A stretch of 64,000 bases of DNA from an uncultured Chiayiivirga sp. (GTDB lineage: Bacteria; Pseudomonadota; Gammaproteobacteria; Xanthomonadales; Xanthomonadaceae): the NCBI GenBank assembly GCA_934525595.1, contig CAKSZJ010000016.1, positions 1 to 64,000 on the forward strand, written 5' to 3'. Below are positions 1,259-27,686 of the stretch, piece by piece. Under the pieces are notes generated by a model, which was given only the letters and a program-made list of their open reading frames with translations, did not search any database and had not been told where the DNA came from. Every line of letters begins with the position of its first letter. The first letter of the stretch is position 1. A program made the position numbers and the translations under genes.

Positions 1259-4200
1259 ATGGTCGCAGGCTGGGTGCTGCTGGGGGTGTCGCTGGGCTAT
1301 GTGGCGCTGCTGTTCGCGGTGGCGTACTTCGGCGACCGGCATCCGCTCTATCCCGAGCGCACCCCGCTGCGGCCGATCATCTACAGCCTGGCTCTGGCGG
1401 TGTACTGCTCCTCCTGGACCTTCTACGGCGCGGTCGGGACGGCGGCGTCTTCGGGCTGGGGCTTCATGCCGATCTATCTGGGGCCCATCCTGCTCTTCGT
1501 CTTCGGGCTGGGGCTGCTGCAGCGATTGGTGCAGGTGACGCACGAGCAGAACATCACCTCGATCGCGGATTTCGTGGGCTCGCGCTACGGCAAGTCGCAG
1601 GGGCTGGCGGCGCTGGTCACGGTCGTGGCGCTGATTGCTGCGGTGCCCTATCTGGCGCTGCAGTTCAAGGCCGGCGCGATGAGCATCGAGGTCTTGAGCG
1701 GGCTTGGCCACCGCGGCCCGCCTGCGCCGCTGCGCGAGCCGGCGTTCTACATGGCGGTGCTGCTGGCGGCGTTTTCCATCCTGTTCGGCACGCGCCAGGT
1801 CGATGCCACCGAGCACCATCACGGGTTGATGCTGGCGGTGGCGCTGGAGTCGCTGGTCAAGCTCCTGGCGTTCGTCGCGGTAGGGGTGTTTGCCTGGGCG
1901 CAGGTGTCGGAAGGGTTCGTGGCGCGTTTCCAGGCCTCTGCGCTGGGCAGCGCCGCGCTGCCTCCGGGTTTTCTGGCACAGCTGCTGCTGGCGTTCTTCG
2001 CGATCATCTGCCTGCCGCGGCAGTTCCAGGTGGGCGTGGTGGAGTGCGAGCATCCGGGCGACGTCCGGCGTGCGCGCTGGATGTTCCCGGCCTACCTGGC
2101 GGTCATCAGTCTGATGGTTGTGCCGATCGCGCTGGCCGGCATCAGTGCGTTCGGCGGTTCGTCGGTGGATCCGGACACCTATGTGCTGATGCTGCCGCTG
2201 GCGCATGGGCAGGACGCGCTTGCGCTGGTGGCCTTCCTGGGCGGATTTTCCGCTGCGACCGGCATGGTGATCGTGGCCACGGTGGCGCTGGCCACGATGG
2301 TTTCCAACGATCTGGTCATGCCGCTGGCGCTGCGTCTGCGCTGGGTCGATGCGCATCCCGCGCGCGACCTCTCACGCCTGGTGCTCGGCATCCGCCGCGC
2401 CGCCATCGTCGGATTGGCGATGGCGGCCTATGTCTATCACCGCGCGACGGTGGATCAGGAGGGCCTTGCGCAGATCGGCCTGCTGGCCTTTGCCGCCGTG
2501 GCGCAGTTCGCGCCGGCCATCATCGGCGGGCTGTACTGGCACGGCGCCAGCCGGACCGGCGCCTATGCCGGCCTGGCCGCCGGCTTCCTGGTCTGGATGT
2601 ACACGCTCCTGTTGCCCACCGTGGCGGCCTCCGTGGGGTTCGGGCCGCGCTGGATCAGCGAGGGCATCTTCGGGTTCGCGCTGCTTCGCCCGAACGCGCT
2701 GTTCGGTCTGTCGGGCTGGGATCCGCTCACGCACGGCGTGTTCTGGTCGCTGCTGTTCAACGTTGCCTGCTTCGTCTTCCTGAGCCTGCGCTACCGGCCG
2801 GCGATGCAGGAGCGCCTGCGCGCGCTGCCGTTCGTCGAACCCTGGGCGCAGCGTCCGGCCAGCGCCGAGGGCGAGTGGCGCGGGCGGGTTTCGGTGGCAG
2901 ATCTGCGCACCATTGCTGAGCGCATCGTCGGCGCGCGTGCCGTGGAACGTGCCTTCGCCGAGTATCGCGAGCAGAGCGGGCGCGAGCTGACGCCGGGCGA
3001 TGCCGCCGATCGCGGCCTGCTGCAACACACCGAGCGCCTGCTGTCCGCGTCGATAGGCGGTCCTACCGCACGCCGCATGCTGACCACGGCGCTGCGCGGC
3101 ACCGGCATGGATCTGGGCGAAGTGGTGGCGTTGCTGGACGAAACCTCGCAGGAACTGCGCTTCAACCGCGCGCTGCTCGCCGCGACGCTGGAGAACATCT
3201 CGCAGGGAATCAGCGTGGTCGACGCCGAGATGCGGCTGGTGGCGTGGAACCGGCGTTATCTGGAGATGTTCGATTACCCCGACGGCATGGTGTACGTGGG
3301 CCGGCCTGTGGCCGACCTGATCCGCTGGAACGCCGAGCGCGGAGGCTGCGGCCCGGGAGAGGTGGAGGCGCAGGTGGAAAAGCGCATCGCCTACATGCGC
3401 CAGGGGTCGCCCTACGTGTTCGAGCGCGTGCGCAGCGATGGCAGCGTGCACGAGATGCGCGGGCGCGCCATGCCGGGTGGTGGTTACGTCACCACGTATA
3501 CCGACGTGACCGACTACAAGCGCGTGGAAGAGGCGCTGATCGAAGCCAACGAGACCCTGGAACTGCGGGTGCGCGAGCGTACCGGCGCGCTGATCGAGGC
3601 GGTCGAGGCGCAGCGCGCGGCCAAGCTGGAGGCGGAGGTCGCGAACCTGAGCAAGACGCGCTTCCTGGCCGGCGCCAGCCATGACCTCCTGCAGCCGCTC
3701 AACGCCGCGCGCCTGTTCAGTGCCGCGCTGATGGATTCACCGCCCGAGACTGCCGATGCGCGCCAGCTGGTGGGGCGCATCGACAGCGCGCTCAAGAACG
3801 CCGAGGAGCTGCTCGGCGGCCTGCTGGAGATCTCGCGCCTGGACAGCGGCACGCTGCGGCCGGAGTTCTCCGCGGTATCGGCGGCGCGTCTGAGCCAGTC
3901 GCTGCACGAGCAATTCGCCCCGCTTGCCGCCGCGCGCGGGCTGGAGCTTCGGGTGCATGCGCCGGATCTGTGGCTGCACAGCGACCGCCGGCTGCTGCGG
4001 CGCATCCTGCAGAACTTCCTGGCCAATGCGTTGCGCTATACCCGCCACGGCGGCGTGCTGCTGTCGGTGCGGCGGCGCGGAAGCCATGCGCAATGGCAGG
4101 TGTGGGATACCGGCCCGGGCATCGCGCCCGAGCACGCGCGTTCGATCTTCGAGGAGTTCGAACGGCTCGATCAGCCCTCGCCCTGGGGCGAGCAGGGGCT

Positions 4201-4762
4201 CGGTCTGGGCCTGTCGATCTGCGACCGCATCGCCCACATGCTCGGTCACCGCATCTTCGTCACCTCACGGCTGGGACGCGGCAGTGCGTTCGGGCTGGAA
4301 GTGCCGCTCGCCCAGGCGCCCGCCGAGCCGATCGCGACGCCGTCGGCGGAGTCCGCGCGCGACGTTGCCGGCCTGCGCGTTCTCTGCGTGGACAATGATC
4401 CGGCGATCCTCGAGGGCATGGCGGCGCTGCTGGGGCGCTGGGGCGTGCAGGTGGCGACTGCGATCGGGCTGGAAACGGCGCTGTGCCGCGTGCGGGAGGC
4501 GCGGCCGGACCTCATCCTCATCGACTTCCACCTGGGCGAGGCGCTCGATGGCCTGGCCGCGCTCGACATCCTGCGGCGCGAAGCCGGAGGCGGCCGCGTT
4601 CCCGGTGCGCTCATCACCGCCGACAGCAGCGAAAGCCTGGCCCAGCGTGCCCGCGGTGCGGACTATCCCGTGCTGCAGAAGCCGGTGCGACCGGCGGCGC
4701 TGCGCGCGCTGATCGCGGCGTTGGCGCGTCGTCGACCGGCCGGCACCGGCGAATCAGGCTGA
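1259..4762 (+). CDS. crbS: SSS-transporter / PAS / hybrid histidine kinase, CrbS (MxtR) type
   Basis: An 1167-aa membrane sensor kinase. Residues 1 to about 510 form a multi-helix sodium:solute-symporter (SLC5-like) domain. A PAS domain follows (about 638-757), then a coiled coil, a HisKA dimerisation domain with phospho-accepting His808 in the motif ASHDLLQPL, a HATPase domain with N-box NFLANALRY and DTGPGIAP, and a C-terminal receiver whose phospho-acceptor is Asp1089. This order and length match CrbS/MxtR, which with its LuxR partner controls the acetate switch (acs) in Vibrio and Pseudomonas. The next gene is such a regulator, read convergently with a 9-bp overlap, which supports the assignment. 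The signal sensed here is not shown by the sequence. It could also be another SSS-linked hybrid kinase. Confidence 0.85.
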   Translation: MVAGWVLLGVSLGYVALLFAVAYFGDRHPLYPERTPLRPIIYSLALAVYCSSWTFYGAVGTAASSGWGFMPIYLGPILLFVFGLGLLQRLVQVTHEQNITSIADFVGSRYGKSQGLAALVTVVALIAAVPYLALQFKAGAMSIEVLSGLGHRGPPAPLREPAFYMAVLLAAFSILFGTRQVDATEHHHGLMLAVALESLVKLLAFVAVGVFAWAQVSEGFVARFQASALGSAALPPGFLAQLLLAFFAIICLPRQFQVGVVECEHPGDVRRARWMFPAYLAVISLMVVPIALAGISAFGGSSVDPDTYVLMLPLAHGQDALALVAFLGGFSAATGMVIVATVALATMVSNDLVMPLALRLRWVDAHPARDLSRLVLGIRRAAIVGLAMAAYVYHRATVDQEGLAQIGLLAFAAVAQFAPAIIGGLYWHGASRTGAYAGLAAGFLVWMYTLLLPTVAASVGFGPRWISEGIFGFALLRPNALFGLSGWDPLTHGVFWSLLFNVACFVFLSLRYRPAMQERLRALPFVEPWAQRPASAEGEWRGRVSVADLRTIAERIVGARAVERAFAEYREQSGRELTPGDAADRGLLQHTERLLSASIGGPTARRMLTTALRGTGMDLGEVVALLDETSQELRFNRALLAATLENISQGISVVDAEMRLVAWNRRYLEMFDYPDGMVYVGRPVADLIRWNAERGGCGPGEVEAQVEKRIAYMRQGSPYVFERVRSDGSVHEMRGRAMPGGGYVTTYTDVTDYKRVEEALIEANETLELRVRERTGALIEAVEAQRAAKLEAEVANLSKTRFLAGASHDLLQPLNAARLFSAALMDSPPETADARQLVGRIDSALKNAEELLGGLLEISRLDSGTLRPEFSAVSAARLSQSLHEQFAPLAAARGLELRVHAPDLWLHSDRRLLRRILQNFLANALRYTRHGGVLLSVRRRGSHAQWQVWDTGPGIAPEHARSIFEEFERLDQPSPWGEQGLGLGLSICDRIAHMLGHRIFVTSRLGRGSAFGLEVPLAQAPAEPIATPSAESARDVAGLRVLCVDNDPAILEGMAALLGRWGVQVATAIGLETALCRVREARPDLILIDFHLGEALDGLAALDILRREAGGGRVPGALITADSSESLAQRARGADYPVLQKPVRPAALRALIAALARRRPAGTGESG

Positions 4763-5428
4763 CGCGTCGACCTCATCGGGCGGCGGCAGGCCGCGCCCGT
4801 CGAGGGTCAGGCGCCCGGCCAGCAGCACCGCCTGGGTGCGCGAGTGCGCACCCAACTTGCGCAGGATCGCGGTCATGTGCGCCTTGATGGTGGCCTCGGA
4901 AACGTTCAGCTCCCAGGCGATCTGCTTGTTGAGCAGGCCGTTGCAGACCATCGCCAGCACGCGGTACTGCTGCGGGGTGAGGTCGGCGATGCGCCGTGCG
5001 AGGTCTTCTTCTTCCGGATCGAGCGGGCCGCCGGCCGCGACTCCGGGCGGCAGCCAGGTGTCTCCGTCGAGCACCGCGCGCAGCGCCGCGCCGATGGTTG
5101 CGATATCGGCCGACTTGGGAACGAAGCCGGCGGCGCCGTGTCCGATGGCGCGGCGCATCAGCGCCGGCTCCTCGCGTGCGGAGATCACCACGACCGGCAG
5201 CGCGGGGAAGGTGGCGCGGACGTGCGCCAGCGCGCTGAAACCGTGCGCGCCGGGCATGTTGAGGTCGAGCAGCACCAGATCCGCGCTCGGGTGGGCCTCC
5301 GCCAGTTCGACCAGCGCCGCGACGTGCTCCGCCTCGAGCAGCCGCGCGTCGGGCAACACCTGGAGCACGGCGCGGCGCAGCGCATCGCGGAAAAGCGGGT
5401 GGTCGTCTGCAATCAGGATCGTGGTCAT
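4754..5428 (-). CDS. crbR: LuxR-family response regulator, CrbR (ErdR) type
   Basis: A 224-aa response regulator. The N-terminal receiver has the acidic pair D8-D9 and phospho-acceptor D55 in LLDLNMPG. The C-terminal LuxR/NarL helix-turn-helix (about 155-215) contains NKQIAWELNVSEATIKAHMT. I chose ATG 5428 because it places the receiver's first strand (MTTILIADDHPLF) at the N-terminus; the open frame extends 19 codons further upstream without family similarity. The gene converges on the hybrid kinase, their 3' ends overlapping by 9 bp, and it diverges from putA. It is inferred to be the kinase's partner, regulating carbon-source genes such as acetyl-CoA synthetase. Confidence 0.82.
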   Translation of the reverse strand: MTTILIADDHPLFRDALRRAVLQVLPDARLLEAEHVAALVELAEAHPSADLVLLDLNMPGAHGFSALAHVRATFPALPVVVISAREEPALMRRAIGHGAAGFVPKSADIATIGAALRAVLDGDTWLPPGVAAGGPLDPEEEDLARRIADLTPQQYRVLAMVCNGLLNKQIAWELNVSEATIKAHMTAILRKLGAHSRTQAVLLAGRLTLDGRGLPPPDEVDASA

Positions 5429-5529
5429 CGATGCATCGGCAACGCGGCGCGAGCGCCCCTTGCCCGCGGCCCAAGCATGCCGCATCGGGGCATTCCGTGC
5501 ACGCGTACCGGCAGTGTGCCGGCATGCGG

Positions 5530-5541
5530 CGGCCTAGGCCG
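5530..5541. promoter_or_regulatory. 12-bp perfect palindrome between crbR and putA
   Basis: CGGCCTAGGCCG is a perfect 12-bp palindrome in the 210-bp divergent gap. It lies about 55 bp upstream of the putative putA -10 element, where an operator could sit. It may be chance in GC-rich DNA. Which protein, if any, binds it is unknown. Confidence 0.25.
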
Positions 5542-5572
5542 ATCAGGCGCACTTCGCGCGCCGTGGCGCCTA

Positions 5573-5601
5573 TCCCTTGGCGGGGTCCGGTGGACTAAAA
5601 T
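5573..5601 (+). promoter_or_regulatory. Possible putA promoter
   Basis: A good -10 element TAAAAT lies at 5596-5601. The -35 at optimal distance (about 5573-5578, TCCCTT) is poor, while TTGGCG at 5577-5582 is too close (13 bp). A start site near 5608 would give a leader of about 30 nt to the GTG at 5639, consistent with that start. A weak -35 often implies an activator. Confidence 0.35.
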
Positions 5602-5638
5602 GCGCTGGCTGCGCGACCCCTTCTTCCCGGAGAACATC

Positions 5639-8600
5639 GTGAAACCCATTCTCAGCCCCGAGCTGCCCCGGCGCGATGCGTCGCTGGCGGCGCTGACACC
5701 GCTGTACGCTGCCGACGAGGGCGCGCACCTGGCTGCGCTGCTGGACAAGGCGCGGGTGGATTCGTCGACGCAGGACGCGATCCAGCGCACCGCCGAACGC
5801 CTGGTGGAGCGCGTGCGGGAGAAGGCTGAAGATCAGGGCGCGATCGAGGCCTTCATGCGCGAATACGACCTCTCCAGCGAGGAGGGCGTGCTGCTGATGT
5901 GCGTGGCCGAGGCGCTGCTGCGCATTCCCGACCAGGACACCGCGGACCGCCTGATCCGCGACAAGCTCGGCGAGGCCGACTGGGAAGCGCATCTGGGGCG
6001 CAGCGATTCGGTCCTGGTCAACGCCTCCACCTGGGGCCTGATGCTGACCGGACGCCTCGTGGGCCTGGCCGACGACACCCGCCGCAGCTTCGGCGATGCG
6101 CTGCGCCGCCTGGTCGGGCGCGCCGGCGAGCCCATGATCCGCCTGGCGGTGCGTCAGGCCATGCGCATCATGGGCCACCAGTTCGTCATGGGGCGCACCA
6201 TCGACGAGGCGCTCAGGCGCGCGCGCCGCAAGGACAACGTCGCCTACCGCCACTCCTACGACATGCTCGGCGAAGCGGCGCTCACCCAGGCGGATGCCGA
6301 CCGCTACTTCGAGGCCTATCGCCGGGCGATCGAGGCGATCGGCAACAGCGGTCCCGGCGGCAGCTTCGTGGGGACCAGCGTGTTCGCCACGCCGAGCATC
6401 TCGATCAAGCTCTCGGCCCTGCATCCGCGCTACGAGGTGGCCAAGCGCGAGCGCGTCATGACCGAGCTGGCGCCGCGCGTGCTGGAGCTGGCACGCCTGG
6501 CGCGCCTCAAGGGCATCGGCTACACCATCGATGCCGAGGAAGCCGACCGCCTGGAGCTGAGCCTGGAGCTGATCGAGAAGGTCTACACAGACCCTTCCAT
6601 CTCTGGCTGGGAAGGCCTGGGGCTTGCGGTGCAGGCGTACCAGAAGCGCGCGCCGGCGGTCATCGACTGGCTGATCGCGCTGGCGCGCCGGGTGGGCCGC
6701 CGGATCCCGGTGCGCCTGGTCAAGGGCGCCTACTGGGATTCGGAGATCAAGCGCGCCCAGGTCGACGGGTACGCCGGCTATCCGGTCTTTACCCGCAAAC
6801 CCAATACCGACGTGAGCTATCTGGCCTGCGCGCGCAAGATGCTGGGTGCCACCGACGCGCTCTATCCGATGTTCGCCAGCCACAATGCCCAGACCATCGC
6901 CGCGGTCAACGAGTTCGCGCGCCTGGCGCTGGGCCGGAGCGGCGGCGGCGAGGTGTGCCAGTACGAGTTCCAGCGGCTGCACGGCATGGGCCAGGAGTTG
7001 CACGACGAAGTGGTTTCGCCCAACGCGCTCGACACCCCCTGCCGCGTGTATGCGCCGGTGGGAAGCCACGAAGACCTGCTGCCCTACCTCGTGCGGCGCC
7101 TGCTGGAGAACGGCGCCAACTCCAGCTTCGTCAACCGCATCACCGATCCGGCGATCGCGCCGGCGGATCTCGTGGCCGATCCGGTCGCCACCGTCGCAGG
7201 CTTCGACTTCAAGCCGCATCCCCGCATCCCCCAGCCCGCCGATCTCTACGGCGAAACAAGGAAGAATTCCATGGGCGTCAATCTCGCCAATGACGATGAG
7301 CTCGCGCGCCTGGCCGAGCAGATCAACGCTGCCGTGCAGCTGTGGACGGCCGTGCCGCTGGTGCCCGGCGCACGCTCTTCGGCGGCGTCGGCGGATGTGA
7401 CCAATCCCGCCGACCGCCGTGAGACGGTGGGAACCTGGCAGGCCGCCGATTCGTCCACCGTCGAGCGCGCCCTGGCCAATGCCGCGGCGGCGCAGCCGGA
7501 CTGGGACGCGATGCCGGCCGCTTCGCGCGCCAAGATCCTCGAGCACGCCGCCGACCTTCTGCAGGCGCGCATGCCGCAGTTCATGGCGCTGTGCACCAAG
7601 GAGGCCGGCAAGACCCTGGCCGACGGCGTGGCCGAGGTGCGCGAAGCGGTGGATTTCCTGCGCTATTACGCCCAGCAGGCGCGCCAGATGCTGGGGCAGG
7701 GCATGCCGCTTCCCGGCCCCACCGGTGAATCCAACCAGCTCTTCCTGCACGGGCGCGGCGTGTTCGTCTGCATCAGCCCGTGGAACTTCCCGCTGGCCAT
7801 CTTCACCGGACAGATCGCCGCCGCCCTGGTTGCCGGCAATGCGGTCATTGCCAAGCCGGCCGAGCAGACCAACCTGATCGGTTACCACATGACCCTGCTC
7901 CTGCAGGAAGCCGGCGTGCCGCCCGAGGTGCTGCAATTCGTGCCCGGGGATGGCGCCACCGTGGGCGCGGCGCTCACCGCCGATGCGCGCGTCGCGGGCG
8001 TGGCCTTCACCGGCTCCACCGAAACCGCACGCGCCATCAACCGGGCGCTGGCCGCGCGCGATGCCGCCATCGGCGTGCTGATCGCCGAAACCGGCGGCCA
8101 GAACGCAATGATCGCCGACTCCTCGGCGCTGCCCGAACAATTGGTGAAGGACACGCTCTCCGGAGCGTTCGGTTCGGCCGGACAGCGCTGTTCGGCGACC
8201 CGCATCCTGTTCGTGCAGCGCGACATCGCCGACAAGGTCATCGCCATGCTCGCCGGGGCCATGGCGGAGCTGAAGGTGGGTGACCCGGGCCTGCTTTCCA
8301 CCGACGTGGGGCCGGTCATCGACGCCGACGCGCTCGCCATGCTCACCACCCACGCCGAGCGCATGGACGCGGAGGCGCGCCCGATCGCCATCGTGGCCCC
8401 CGGCGAGGACACGGAGCACGGCAGCTTCTTCGCACCGCGCGCCTACGAGATCGACTCGCTGGATCGCCTGCAGCGCGAAATCTTCGGCCCGGTCCTGCAC
8501 GTGATCCGTTACGACGCCGAAAAGCTCGACGCGGTGATCGACGCCATCAACGCCACCGGCTACGGCCTCACGCTCGGCATCCACAGCCGCATCGACGAGA

Positions 8601-24831: not shown

Positions 24832-24934
24832 CGCCGCTTACCCGGATTTTTAGGGGCGAAGACGCGCGGCGATGAAGGTTCACGCAAGGAGCCGGCCGAC
24901 GGGAGGGCGCAATTCTGGTTAGGGGAAGCACTAC

Positions 24935-25153
24935 ATGTCGAAACTAGTGGAGCTGATGCGGGAGCTGGGCCGCAACGCAGCCCTCGCCCGGGATTACGAG
25001 GCCGATGCGGAGGCGGTGATGCGCAACGCGGGCCTTTCCGCAGAAGAATGTCGCGCGCTGCGGGAAAAGGACTACGACGCGATCAAGCGACTGACCGGGC
25101 TGGTCGACGGCCAGTTCGCCGTCAATCACATCATCCGGGCTTACGACCAGTAG
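24935..25153 (+). CDS. Putative split-borosin precursor peptide (SonA-like, LigA-fold leader)
   Basis: A 72-aa peptide with a strong ribosome-binding site (AGGGGA, 8 bp before ATG). Residues 1 to about 55 form a small helical LigA-like domain (LMRELGRNAALARDYEADAE, then EAVMRNAGLS). From memory this aligns without gaps to SonA of Shewanella oneidensis, including the DY, EAVMR and GL positions and the K(R/T)L(T/S)G end. The domain serves there as the borosin-binding domain. The remaining tail (about 57-72: VDGQFAVNHIIRAYDQ) would be the core. In SonA, L63 and I65 are N-methylated; the ungapped equivalents here are V63 and H65, with I66 and I67 adjacent. The gene ends 22 bp before the fused methyltransferase. 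The alternative, a true dioxygenase LigA subunit, is unlikely because no LigB partner is present. Confidence 0.85.
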   Translation: MSKLVELMRELGRNAALARDYEADAEAVMRNAGLSAEECRALREKDYDAIKRLTGLVDGQFAVNHIIRAYDQ

Positions 25154-25175
25154 CCGACCGCTCGCCTGCACGCGC

Positions 25176-27686
25176 ATGGCCAGATCATTCCCCATCCTGA
25201 GAACTCTGATTCTGGTGGCGTCATGCATGGTGTCGGGTGCCTGCGGATCTGCCGTGGACGCAGACGGTGCGGCCACCGATGCCGCGACCGACGGCAGTGC
25301 TCCTTCCGTGCTTTCCCTGACCCCGACCGACGGCATCGCTCGCCTCGATGAGGCCGATCCCGAAGGTGCCTATACGCGGCTGCGCAATCTGGCCCTTTCC
25401 GGCGACCACGCCACCGCGCAGCGCGGACTGATCGAACTGCTGGCGCACGATGCCCTTCCCGCATCGCTGCGGATGCGCATCTACATCACCGCCATCAGCA
25501 TCGCCACCAACTACGAAGACTGGCCGCAGGCGTTTTCCCTGCTCAACGAGGCCATGCCCCACCTGCCGTCCGCACCGGGCGAGGCCGCACGCCTGCTTGG
25601 CGCCGCCAGTCAGCTCTATTCCGCCGTCGGCGAAACCGAGCGCGCCCTCGACCTGGGCCTGCGTGCGGTCCAGGCGGCCGAAGCCGGGCAGGAGGATCTT
25701 CCAGCCTGTCACGCTGTCGCCGCGCTGGCCATTGCCTATGAGAACGGGGATGTCTGGGGAGCCGCGCTGCAATGGCGCAAGCGCCAGGTCGAAGCCTGCG
25801 CCCGCGCTGGCGATGCGCTGTTTGCCGCCAACGGCAAGTATGGCGTCGGTACGGTGTCGATGGCGCAGGGGCAGTATCGCCAGGCATTGGAGTGGGGTGA
25901 GGAGGCGCTGGCCGATTACGAGGCCGACGCCTATGAAGCCGGTGCCAGCAACGCCAGACTCCTGATTGCCCTGACCCTGGTCGAACTGGGAGAGCAGTCG
26001 AAGCGCGCGGACGCGCTGCTGGCCGGCCTTGCCGCGCGCAATCGCACCCGCCCTTCGATGCTGGTGATGGTCGATGTCGAACAGGCCAGAGCAACCCTCG
26101 CCGAGTCGCGCGGCGATCTGGCAGCCAGCGTTGTGCATCTCAGGGAGGCATTGAGGCTGTCGAAGGAGGTTGACCGGAGCGCGCGTGCCCGGCAGCTGGC
26201 CTACCTGCAGATCCAGTTCGACACCCAGCTCAAGGAACAGCGGATTTCCCTGCTGGAAGCCGAGAAGGCACTGGCCGAGGCGACCACCACGGCTGCCCAC
26301 AGGCGCCAGCTGCTGCTGGCGACCGGCGTGGCTGGCCTCATCGTCTCGTCCACGCTTCTCCTTCTTCTCCTGCGCCGCACCCTGCGCGATCGCCGGCGCT
26401 ATCGCTGGGAGGCCGAGCACGACGGACTCACCCGGCTCATCAACCAGCAGCACCTGCTCAAGGTCGGCGATGCGGCGTTCTCGCGGGCTGCGAAGGCCGG
26501 ACGGCCATTCAGCGCCATTGCGGTGGACATCGATCTTTTCAAGCACATCAACGATACCCACGGACACGCGGCGGGCGACGAGGCACTGCGCGCGATGGGT
26601 CACTGGATCCGTGACGTGGTGGGAGAACGGGGCATCGCCGCGCGGCGCGGCGGTGACGAGTTCATGATCCTGGTCGAGGACGATGTCATCCAGGCCAAGC
26701 GCCTGCTGCAGCGCCTGCGCGAGCGGATCGTTCCGGTGATCGTGCATGGCCGCACGCTGGCGTTCACCATCAGCGCCGGCATCTGTCAGGCCGACGCGCG
26801 CGTAGGCTCGATCGAGCAGCTTCTCCACAAGGCCGACAAGGCGCTGTATCGAGCCAAGCGGCAGGGCCGCGACAGGCTCGCCTGCTGGAACGACGAGGTG
26901 CCGGATGATACGAATGCCGCTTCGACCGGCAGCCTCGTGGTGGTCGGGTGCGGCATCCAGTTCGGCCGTCACGTCAGCGAACGCACGCTGTCGGAAATCC
27001 AGCAGGCGCAGGTGGTGTTCTGTCTGGCCGACCCCTTCGCGCTGGCGATGATCACGCGTCTGCGCCCCGACGTCATCAACCTCGGGACGCACTACGCACC
27101 GGGCCGCGACCGGCGTGAGACCTACCGCGACATCGACGCGGCGATCATGCGCGAGGTGCGCGCCGGAAAAGCGGTCTGTGCGGTGTTCTATGGCCACCCC
27201 GGCGTCTTTGCCGACGTGCCGCACCAGGTGGTCCGCAAGGCGCGTGCCGAGGGCATGAGCGCGCGCATGGAGCCTGGCATCTCGGCCGAAGCCTGCCTGT
27301 ATGCCGACCTGGGAATCGATCCCGGCCAGCGCGGCGTCCAGTCGCTGGAGGCCACGTACTTCCTCTGCTATGACCGGCAGATCGACCCGCAGGGCCACGT
27401 GCTGCTCTGGCAGGTGGCGCTGGCGGGCGACTGGTCGTGCACCCGTCTGGAGGCCGATCGGGACGGGCTGCGCGCGCTGGTGGAAAAGCTCCTGCGCTGG
27501 TATCCGCCCGATCACGAGGTGATCCTTTACGAAGCCGCGCAGTTGCCGATCGACGACTTCCGCGCCGAGCACCTGCGCCTTTGCGACCTGCCGGACGCGC
27601 AGTACCGGCAGATCACCACCCTGGTCATCCCGCCGCTGGAGTCCGCGCTGCGGCGCGATCCCGCCTGTGAAGCCGCAGCGAACTGA
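25176..27686 (+). CDS. TPR sensor / transmembrane / GGDEF diguanylate cyclase fused to a borosin alpha-N-methyltransferase
   Basis: An 836-aa fusion. An N-terminal hydrophobic signal with two possible lipobox cysteines (C17, C23) leads into helical TPR-like repeats (about 50-350) and a coiled segment. A transmembrane helix follows (about 379-399), then a GGDEF domain (about 412-575) with DIDLFKHINDTHGHAAGDEAL and the motif GGDEF at 492-496. The inhibitory RxxD site is absent. Residues 585 to about 825 are a tetrapyrrole-methylase-fold domain matching SonM-type borosin methyltransferases: GSLVVVGCGIQFG, the RRETY motif (R646, Y650), YGHPGVF (Y672), MEPGISAEACLYADLGIDPG and LLLWQVALAG. Catalytic Arg and Tyr positions of this class are kept. 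Expected activities: c-di-GMP synthesis and SAM-dependent backbone N-methylation of the adjacent peptide. No clear Shine-Dalgarno precedes the ATG, so translation may be coupled to the peptide gene. Confidence 0.88.
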   Translation: MARSFPILRTLILVASCMVSGACGSAVDADGAATDAATDGSAPSVLSLTPTDGIARLDEADPEGAYTRLRNLALSGDHATAQRGLIELLAHDALPASLRMRIYITAISIATNYEDWPQAFSLLNEAMPHLPSAPGEAARLLGAASQLYSAVGETERALDLGLRAVQAAEAGQEDLPACHAVAALAIAYENGDVWGAALQWRKRQVEACARAGDALFAANGKYGVGTVSMAQGQYRQALEWGEEALADYEADAYEAGASNARLLIALTLVELGEQSKRADALLAGLAARNRTRPSMLVMVDVEQARATLAESRGDLAASVVHLREALRLSKEVDRSARARQLAYLQIQFDTQLKEQRISLLEAEKALAEATTTAAHRRQLLLATGVAGLIVSSTLLLLLLRRTLRDRRRYRWEAEHDGLTRLINQQHLLKVGDAAFSRAAKAGRPFSAIAVDIDLFKHINDTHGHAAGDEALRAMGHWIRDVVGERGIAARRGGDEFMILVEDDVIQAKRLLQRLRERIVPVIVHGRTLAFTISAGICQADARVGSIEQLLHKADKALYRAKRQGRDRLACWNDEVPDDTNAASTGSLVVVGCGIQFGRHVSERTLSEIQQAQVVFCLADPFALAMITRLRPDVINLGTHYAPGRDRRETYRDIDAAIMREVRAGKAVCAVFYGHPGVFADVPHQVVRKARAEGMSARMEPGISAEACLYADLGIDPGQRGVQSLEATYFLCYDRQIDPQGHVLLWQVALAGDWSCTRLEADRDGLRALVEKLLRWYPPDHEVILYEAAQLPIDDFRAEHLRLCDLPDAQYRQITTLVIPPLESALRRDPACEAAAN

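Follow-up and report, generated by a model that had tools for sequence, protein, structure and literature searches.

A SonA-like borosin precursor encoded beside a TPR-GGDEF-methyltransferase fusion points to a likely signaling role for SonMA-type borosins

Split borosins are systems in which a precursor peptide and its α-N-methyltransferase are encoded separately (PMC8429565). In the type IV system of Shewanella oneidensis, as described in the main text of that paper (PDB 7LTC), the methyltransferase SonM is a free enzyme of 263 aa, the precursor SonA is methylated at L63 and I65, and the active-site residues Y58, R67, Y71, and Y93 of SonM were probed; according to the same text, no bacterial split-borosin pathway had been tied to a final natural product by 2021. 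Here we describe a locus in a window of 64,000 nucleotides (nt), positions 1 to 64,000 of contig CAKSZJ010000016.1 (assembly GCA_934525595.1) from an uncultured Chiayiivirga sp., where a SonA-like precursor gene is followed by a gene for a fusion protein with tetratricopeptide-repeat (TPR), transmembrane, GGDEF, and methyltransferase parts. Both enzyme domains carry intact motifs, and in related loci the precursor is steadily linked to the same kind of TPR sensor, the output of which is swapped between loci. With precursor and α-N-methyltransferase on two open reading frames 22 nt apart, the locus is by its sequence a split borosin in the broad sense but not a type IV system in the narrow sense of a free-standing ∼263-aa methyltransferase, the enzyme here being a domain of an 836-aa protein. 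The window locus and SonM-SonA have in common a discrete SonA-like precursor, the four active-site residues, and a TPR-transmembrane-GGDEF frame directly after the precursor gene. They differ in that the methyltransferase forms the C-terminal domain of the TPR-transmembrane-GGDEF protein in the window, in the gene order (precursor, then fusion), and in the core sequence.

The precursor gene (24935..25153, stop included; this and all features below lie on the + strand) encodes 72 aa and is preceded by AGGGGA (24921..24926), which resembles a ribosome-binding site 8 nt ahead of the ATG, and its downstream neighbor begins at 25176. These coordinates agree with an earlier note on this DNA, made from its letters alone, that had reported a 72-codon gene with a ribosome-binding site 22 bp ahead of its neighbor. 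The gapless alignment to SonA proposed in that note was recovered by phmmer: SonA chains matched the precursor without gaps across residues 1-56 or 1-60 (E 2e-6 to 5e-6), and a homology search returned 29 matches with a conserved tail, the window's own and 28 further homologues. On this alignment (E ∼2e-6), residues 1-53 (24935..25093) are predicted to form a borosin-binding domain, with the boundary taken from SonA 1-53 (PMC8429565), and residues 61-72, FAVNHIIRAYDQ (25115..25150), the core peptide, within which V63 and H65 are the alignment counterparts of SonA L63 and I65. The core is kept in 71 unique close relatives, its tail positions F, A, N, A, and Y being 85–97% conserved, on par with well-conserved leader positions, in a count confined to sequences at E < 1e-28 and hence biased toward close relatives. 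The description of the precursor as LigA-like holds only as a weak Pfam similarity (PF07746, 22.3 bits), which lies under the cut-off of 25.3, and identity with a LigA dioxygenase subunit was rejected. Chance open reading frames were also rejected, both genes being retained among homologues.

The C-terminal domain of the fusion (residues 585-822; 26928..27641) matched the SonM structures 7ltc_A and 8t1s_A (E 2.8e-72) and, less strongly, fungal OphMA-type enzymes (E 6e-43 to 1e-37), whereas the top match to an ordinary precorrin methylase reached E 0.002. Ordinary cobalamin or siroheme methylases, which the earlier note had named as the outcome to check for, were therefore not the best matches, and identity as an ordinary tetrapyrrole methylase was dropped. 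The motifs RRETY, YGHPGVF, and MEPGISAEACLYADLGIDPG, previously noted as those of borosin methyltransferases, are read in the translation, and SonM Y58, R67, Y71, and Y93 correspond to Y640, R646, Y650, and Y672, which are kept in 57 of 57 aligned fusions including that of the window. The GGDEF domain (residues 413-567; 26412..26876; Pfam E 4.2e-34) has an intact diguanylate cyclase motif, and across the same 57 fusions the motif reads GGDEF in 51 and GGEEF in six. The RxxD product-inhibition site, scored at what we take to be its position in GGDEF domains, is missing from all 57, and the cyclase of the fused clade would thus be free of product inhibition; the 34 separate sensor-GGDEF frames of the related loci introduced below (L001 to L080) all read GGEEF, and 16 have RxxD. 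Because the motifs are intact in both domains, both enzymes look active. The earlier reading of a borosin pair for peptide N-methylation is supported by the SonM and OphMA matches, the four kept residues, and the precursor homologues, but it had overlooked the TPR-transmembrane-GGDEF part, in the light of which a signaling system becomes more likely than a natural product.

The fusion gene occupies 25176..27686 (stop included), and its homologues are ∼840 aa long. As judged by Pfam, AlphaFold2, and hydropathy, its first ∼580 residues comprise a hydrophobic N-terminus, a TPR region, a transmembrane segment, and the GGDEF domain. A predicted signal sequence (residues 1-25; 25176..25250; simple hydropathy) precedes a TPR superhelix (residues ∼61-315; 25356..26120), a predicted periplasmic sensor. 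Pfam gave weak TPR matches ahead of the GGDEF domain, and AlphaFold2 gave a superhelix of TPR type for residues 40-377 at a mean predicted local distance difference test score (pLDDT) of 93, the fold of which matched TPR proteins. In the full-length model (mean pLDDT 82, predicted template modeling score 0.47), a continuous helix of ∼100 residues (315-414; stalk at 26121..26411), carrying the hydrophobic and predicted transmembrane segment 379-397 (26310..26366), leads to the GGDEF domain and then to the methyltransferase. Simple hydropathy found a hydrophobic N-terminal segment in 108 of 115 long fused homologues, and a fixed-pattern test found a transmembrane segment in 89 of them. Since the window protein shares this hydrophobic start, the TPR domain is predicted to be exported to the periplasm and both enzymes to be cytoplasmic. 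One database gene call (P0001) begins at Met18, and many homologues start at the upstream site; some rows of alignments A2 to A4, which include stop-to-stop frames, begin upstream of the true start. Cys178 (25707..25709) and Cys208 (25797..25799) are both present in 54 of 57 aligned sensors and jointly lost in three kinases (L146 to L148). From the helix boundaries of the model they lie on neighboring antiparallel helices, which suggests a disulfide between them, in keeping with a periplasmic location.

A search with the methyltransferase part returned 323 matches including the window's own, in proteins of ∼460–1463 aa; among the 120 matches listed, all had GGDEF and TP_methylase, and the names given were almost all 'diguanylate cyclase'. 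Related loci were found via two conserved peptide patterns, and the best 80 of 139 confirmed in named genomes were analyzed (L001 to L080; taxon names follow record titles). A sensor profile matched in 78 of the 80, a figure that is partly circular because the profile was built from the sensors of these same loci and from fused homologues; the two misses, L022 and L044, start inside the gene at a contig end. In 72 loci the sensor carries GGDEF, and in 43 it is fused to the methyltransferase. Precursor and sensor were both found in 73 loci, and in 70 of these the precursor lies immediately ahead of the sensor, the exceptions being the Kangiella-type loci L064, L066, and L078; the precursor profile overlooked precursors in L069 and L075/L076 that are visible by eye. 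Precursor-sensor adjacency holds while the position of the methyltransferase varies. The order precursor-fusion is found mostly in Lysobacteraceae, and also in Rubrivivax and several metagenome-assembled genomes (MAGs) under other names. Wenzhouxiangella, Undibacterium, and one alphaproteobacterial MAG have precursor-sensor-methyltransferase, and Shewanella has methyltransferase-precursor-sensor. In L065 and L072 a Pfam-confirmed GNAT gene follows the methyltransferase (methyltransferase-GNAT-precursor-sensor), with similar-sized frames in L063, L067, and L077. The linkage of borosin precursor to TPR sensor thus spans gamma- and betaproteobacteria and one alphaproteobacterial MAG.

The linkage was also measured in an even draw of 398 Pseudomonadota genomes, with at most five (sensor) or six (methyltransferase) candidates scored per genome. 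The methyltransferase occurred in 15 genomes at 18 places, and the sensor lay within ∼5 kb at 17 of the 18, with GGDEF in 14; in L141, one of the 17, the GGDEF-type sensor gene runs on the opposite strand and the locus showed no precursor. These 18 loci were sampled separately, although L060 is common to the set of 80 and further overlap is possible. As a control, 39 regions surrounding further TP-methylase genes in these 15 genomes were searched, and the sensor was present in 0 and GGDEF in two; the 39 regions cover 40 of 41 non-borosin-type matches (two share one region), and three are shortened by contig ends. A search of the 398 genomes with the sensor only gave matches in 26 at E 1e-15 and in 12 at 1e-35 or better, a line set after a gap was seen between 8.6e-38 and 5.8e-30. 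Eleven of the 12 strong genomes also hold the methyltransferase, the exception being G294. Conversely, four of the 15 methyltransferase genomes lack a strong sensor match: in G021, G348, and G381 the sensor next to the gene is of the kinase type, and in G032 there is no sensor.

Shewanella gave a similar picture. The sensor was present in 20 of 20 loci, these being the best-scoring new ones from 53 positive genomes and a non-random pick. It was found in 13 of 13 tested genomes with the methyltransferase (E 3.1e-52 or better) and, as a strong match, in none of seven without it, where five had weak matches (best 9.6e-19). In L183, assigned to S. oneidensis because its SonA is 100% identical over 60 residues, a 596-aa TPR-transmembrane-GGDEF frame (3164-4951) opens right after sonA. 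In S. oneidensis MR-1, sonM, sonA, and the TPR-transmembrane-GGDEF gene stand three in a row. Neither GGDEF nor tetratricopeptide is mentioned in the main text of PMC8429565.

The output of the sensor at borosin loci is GGDEF, a hybrid histidine kinase, or none. In L052 (Natronospira; 2845-5883), L146 (6125-9016), L147 (1251-4499), and L148 (6071-9328), the same kind of TPR sensor beside a borosin precursor ends in HisKA, HATPase, and receiver domains (Pfam) in place of GGDEF. Kangiella-type loci (L064:8803-11021; L066:8818-10951; L078:8849-12055; L062:5089-6162) encode between one and three complete proteins that consist of TPR without an output domain, often arranged in tandem, with a hydrophobic start, predicted export, and sensor-profile matches of E 7.7e-38 to 2.3e-54. 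In midpoint-rooted trees without branch support, from which six unpaired methyltransferases were left out and four duplicates removed, the fused proteins form one clade by methyltransferase and by sensor, save two mislabeled tips (the second copy of L008, and L026) caused by neighbor-copy pairing and a broken frame; kinase-type tips form no group in the methyltransferase tree. Where one genome has two cassettes, their sensors are 17–24% identical (four genomes) or 33% (a fifth, a Wenzhouxiangella MAG), compared with 35–43% for matching cassettes of different Shewanella genomes; the corresponding methyltransferase values are 46–57% and 61–71%. Identity is therefore higher by cassette type than within a genome, which argues that sensor and methyltransferase travel together by cassette type.

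Further features of these loci were recorded. The GNAT acetyltransferase between methyltransferase and precursor (L065:8774-9292; L072:8701-9309) is a possible further modifying enzyme. The Dokdonella MAG L008 (2679-8762) has two precursor-fusion cassettes in tandem, and the Rubrivivax loci L015, L022, L024, and L073 bear the Lysobacteraceae-type fusion, which suggests horizontal transfer. Two SonA-like precursors with differing tails stand in tandem in some Shewanella (L117:924-1447; L118:926-1447). Precursors of a second class, which combine a short Cys-bearing core with a long acidic tail, occur in L063, L065, L067, L072, L074, L075, L077, L139, and L142, each of which has a sensor. A condensation-adenylation (nonribosomal peptide synthetase) frame directly follows the borosin-sensor cassette in L145 (8571-10901). 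TP_methylase was the sole Pfam match in the long frames of L075 (1114 aa) and L149 (1177 aa), the remainder probably being non-coding, and the L076 frame is equally long. No conserved wider neighborhood was found in the available flanks of the 80 loci at E 1e-15: upstream comF recurred only in L001 and downstream mutM only in L001, L075, and L076.

From these observations a mechanism can be proposed. In the cytoplasm, the methyltransferase domain of the neighboring fusion would N-methylate the backbone of the 72-aa peptide, at one or more residues around 63-67 by analogy with SonMA. The tail of the peptide would then be released by proteolysis and the peptide would cross the membrane, N-methylation favoring permeability. 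The peptide or its processed tail would bind the predicted periplasmic TPR domain, and this binding would control the c-di-GMP (cyclic di-GMP) made by the GGDEF domain. The precursor would in this way serve as ligand or partner of a periplasmic TPR receptor with c-di-GMP or a phosphorelay as output. A pepsin-like protease is said, in work of 2024 attributed to Lee, to cut a Shewanella borosin precursor. Whether the neighbor's enzyme methylates the precursor, and the peptide or its tail acts on the periplasmic TPR domain to set GGDEF output, we judge to be evenly balanced. Because the same sensor type adjoins nearly all of the related loci analyzed, including the Shewanella one, SonMA-type borosin peptides are likely signals rather than antibiotics. 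Only tentatively do we extend this to a Gram-negative peptide-signal system with an N-methylated autoinducer, a disulfide-stapled periplasmic TPR receptor, and a c-di-GMP or phosphorelay output, in which the Lysobacteraceae would have joined the signal-making enzyme and its receptor in one transmembrane protein. With a TPR sensor of GGDEF or kinase type steadily next to the precursor, these peptides gain a concrete candidate function: they would control c-di-GMP and, through it, perhaps biofilm or motility, both of which c-di-GMP controls. If true, this would put a modification of ribosomally synthesized and post-translationally modified peptides (RiPPs) to a new use, namely signaling within the circuitry of the cell itself.

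The same fusion and operon linkage would fit equally well if information flowed in the reverse direction: the TPR domain would sense a cue from outside, methylation or release of the peptide would be controlled by c-di-GMP or by coupling within the fusion, and the peptide itself would be an ordinary natural product that is secreted. The methyltransferase acts as a dimer (PMC8429565, main text). Since diguanylate cyclases for their part require a pair of GGDEF domains, coupling within a dimer is easy to imagine. We nevertheless regard this as somewhat unlikely, since the steadiest neighbor of the sensor is the precursor and not the methyltransferase, as in the 70 of 73 loci and in L236, and since the core is conserved in close relatives of the fused clade, unlike that of a diversified warfare compound. 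Another arrangement would release no peptide at all: the helical bundle of the precursor on the methyltransferase, methylated or not, would regulate the GGDEF domain directly. No constant protease or exporter was seen in the cassette, and most SonM binding comes from the SonA leader (PMC8429565, main text), both of which suit such an intracellular partner; the TPR domain, however, is the most constant partner and in Kangiella is present without a cytoplasmic output, and we consider this arrangement improbable.

Several observations weigh against the link between borosin genes and the sensor. G294 carries a strong sensor-GGDEF frame with neither precursor nor methyltransferase visible around it; in G348 a tandem pair of sensor-GGDEF frames lies apart from the methyltransferase, again with no visible precursor; and L149 has no sensor at its borosin locus. 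A further alternative is that a borosin cassette picked up a common TPR-diguanylate cyclase by chance and that the two are merely co-inherited, without a functional link. TPR-GGDEF proteins are common in these bacteria, and weaker sensor-like proteins exist without borosin genes, but the link is retained through 0 of 39 controls, co-occurrence in genomes, varied gene orders, a fusion, and swapped outputs, so that mere co-inheritance appears very remote. In L235 (4954-6726) and L237 (4101-7786), sensor-GGDEF frames stand without a visible borosin precursor or methyltransferase; these may read another ligand. On the minus strand of L236 (4330-6445), the start of a sensor-GGDEF gene is overlapped by a precursor-like gene that has a weak profile match (E 4e-3) and an acidic tail. 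The two lie ∼88 kb from the methyltransferase of that genome, which suggests that precursor and sensor may form the unit.

Apart from SonM-SonA, three described groups come close to the window locus. A borosin type with GGDEF is named in the Figure 1 legend of PMC11395268, where types V–X are credited to Imani 2022 and Cho 2022. GGDEF being present in this published drawing of borosin types, the fused architecture is probably catalogued, and the window architecture is likely identical with that type; a GGDEF-bearing architecture is shared, and that legend gives no sensor, linkage survey, function, or type number. A literature search found no paper joining borosin with c-di-GMP or tetratricopeptide, or diguanylate cyclase with tetrapyrrole methylase and RiPP, Imani 2022, Cho 2022, and Lee 2024 being outside its reach, and SO1478/SO1479/SO1480 led to PMC8429565 alone. 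A steady TPR sensor with swappable output beside borosins may be new in print.

The peptide-pheromone receptors of the RRNPP family (Rap, NprR) are an analogy and not a family to which the sensor belongs. RRNPP receptors are cytoplasmic, with phosphatase or helix-turn-helix outputs, whereas the window sensor has a hydrophobic N-terminus, a transmembrane segment, and GGDEF instead and is predicted to be periplasmic, membrane-anchored, and disulfide-bearing; the output in its family is GGDEF or a histidine kinase, and the peptide is a borosin precursor. Structural matches to the TPR model include Rap and NprR, and unrelated TPR proteins equally. The TPR-containing membrane diguanylate cyclases have the same order of hydrophobic N-terminus, TPR, transmembrane segment, and GGDEF. 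What sets the window protein apart from them is its sensor subfamily, strong in 12 of 398 genomes of which 11 have the borosin methyltransferase, and a clade that carries this enzyme at its own end.

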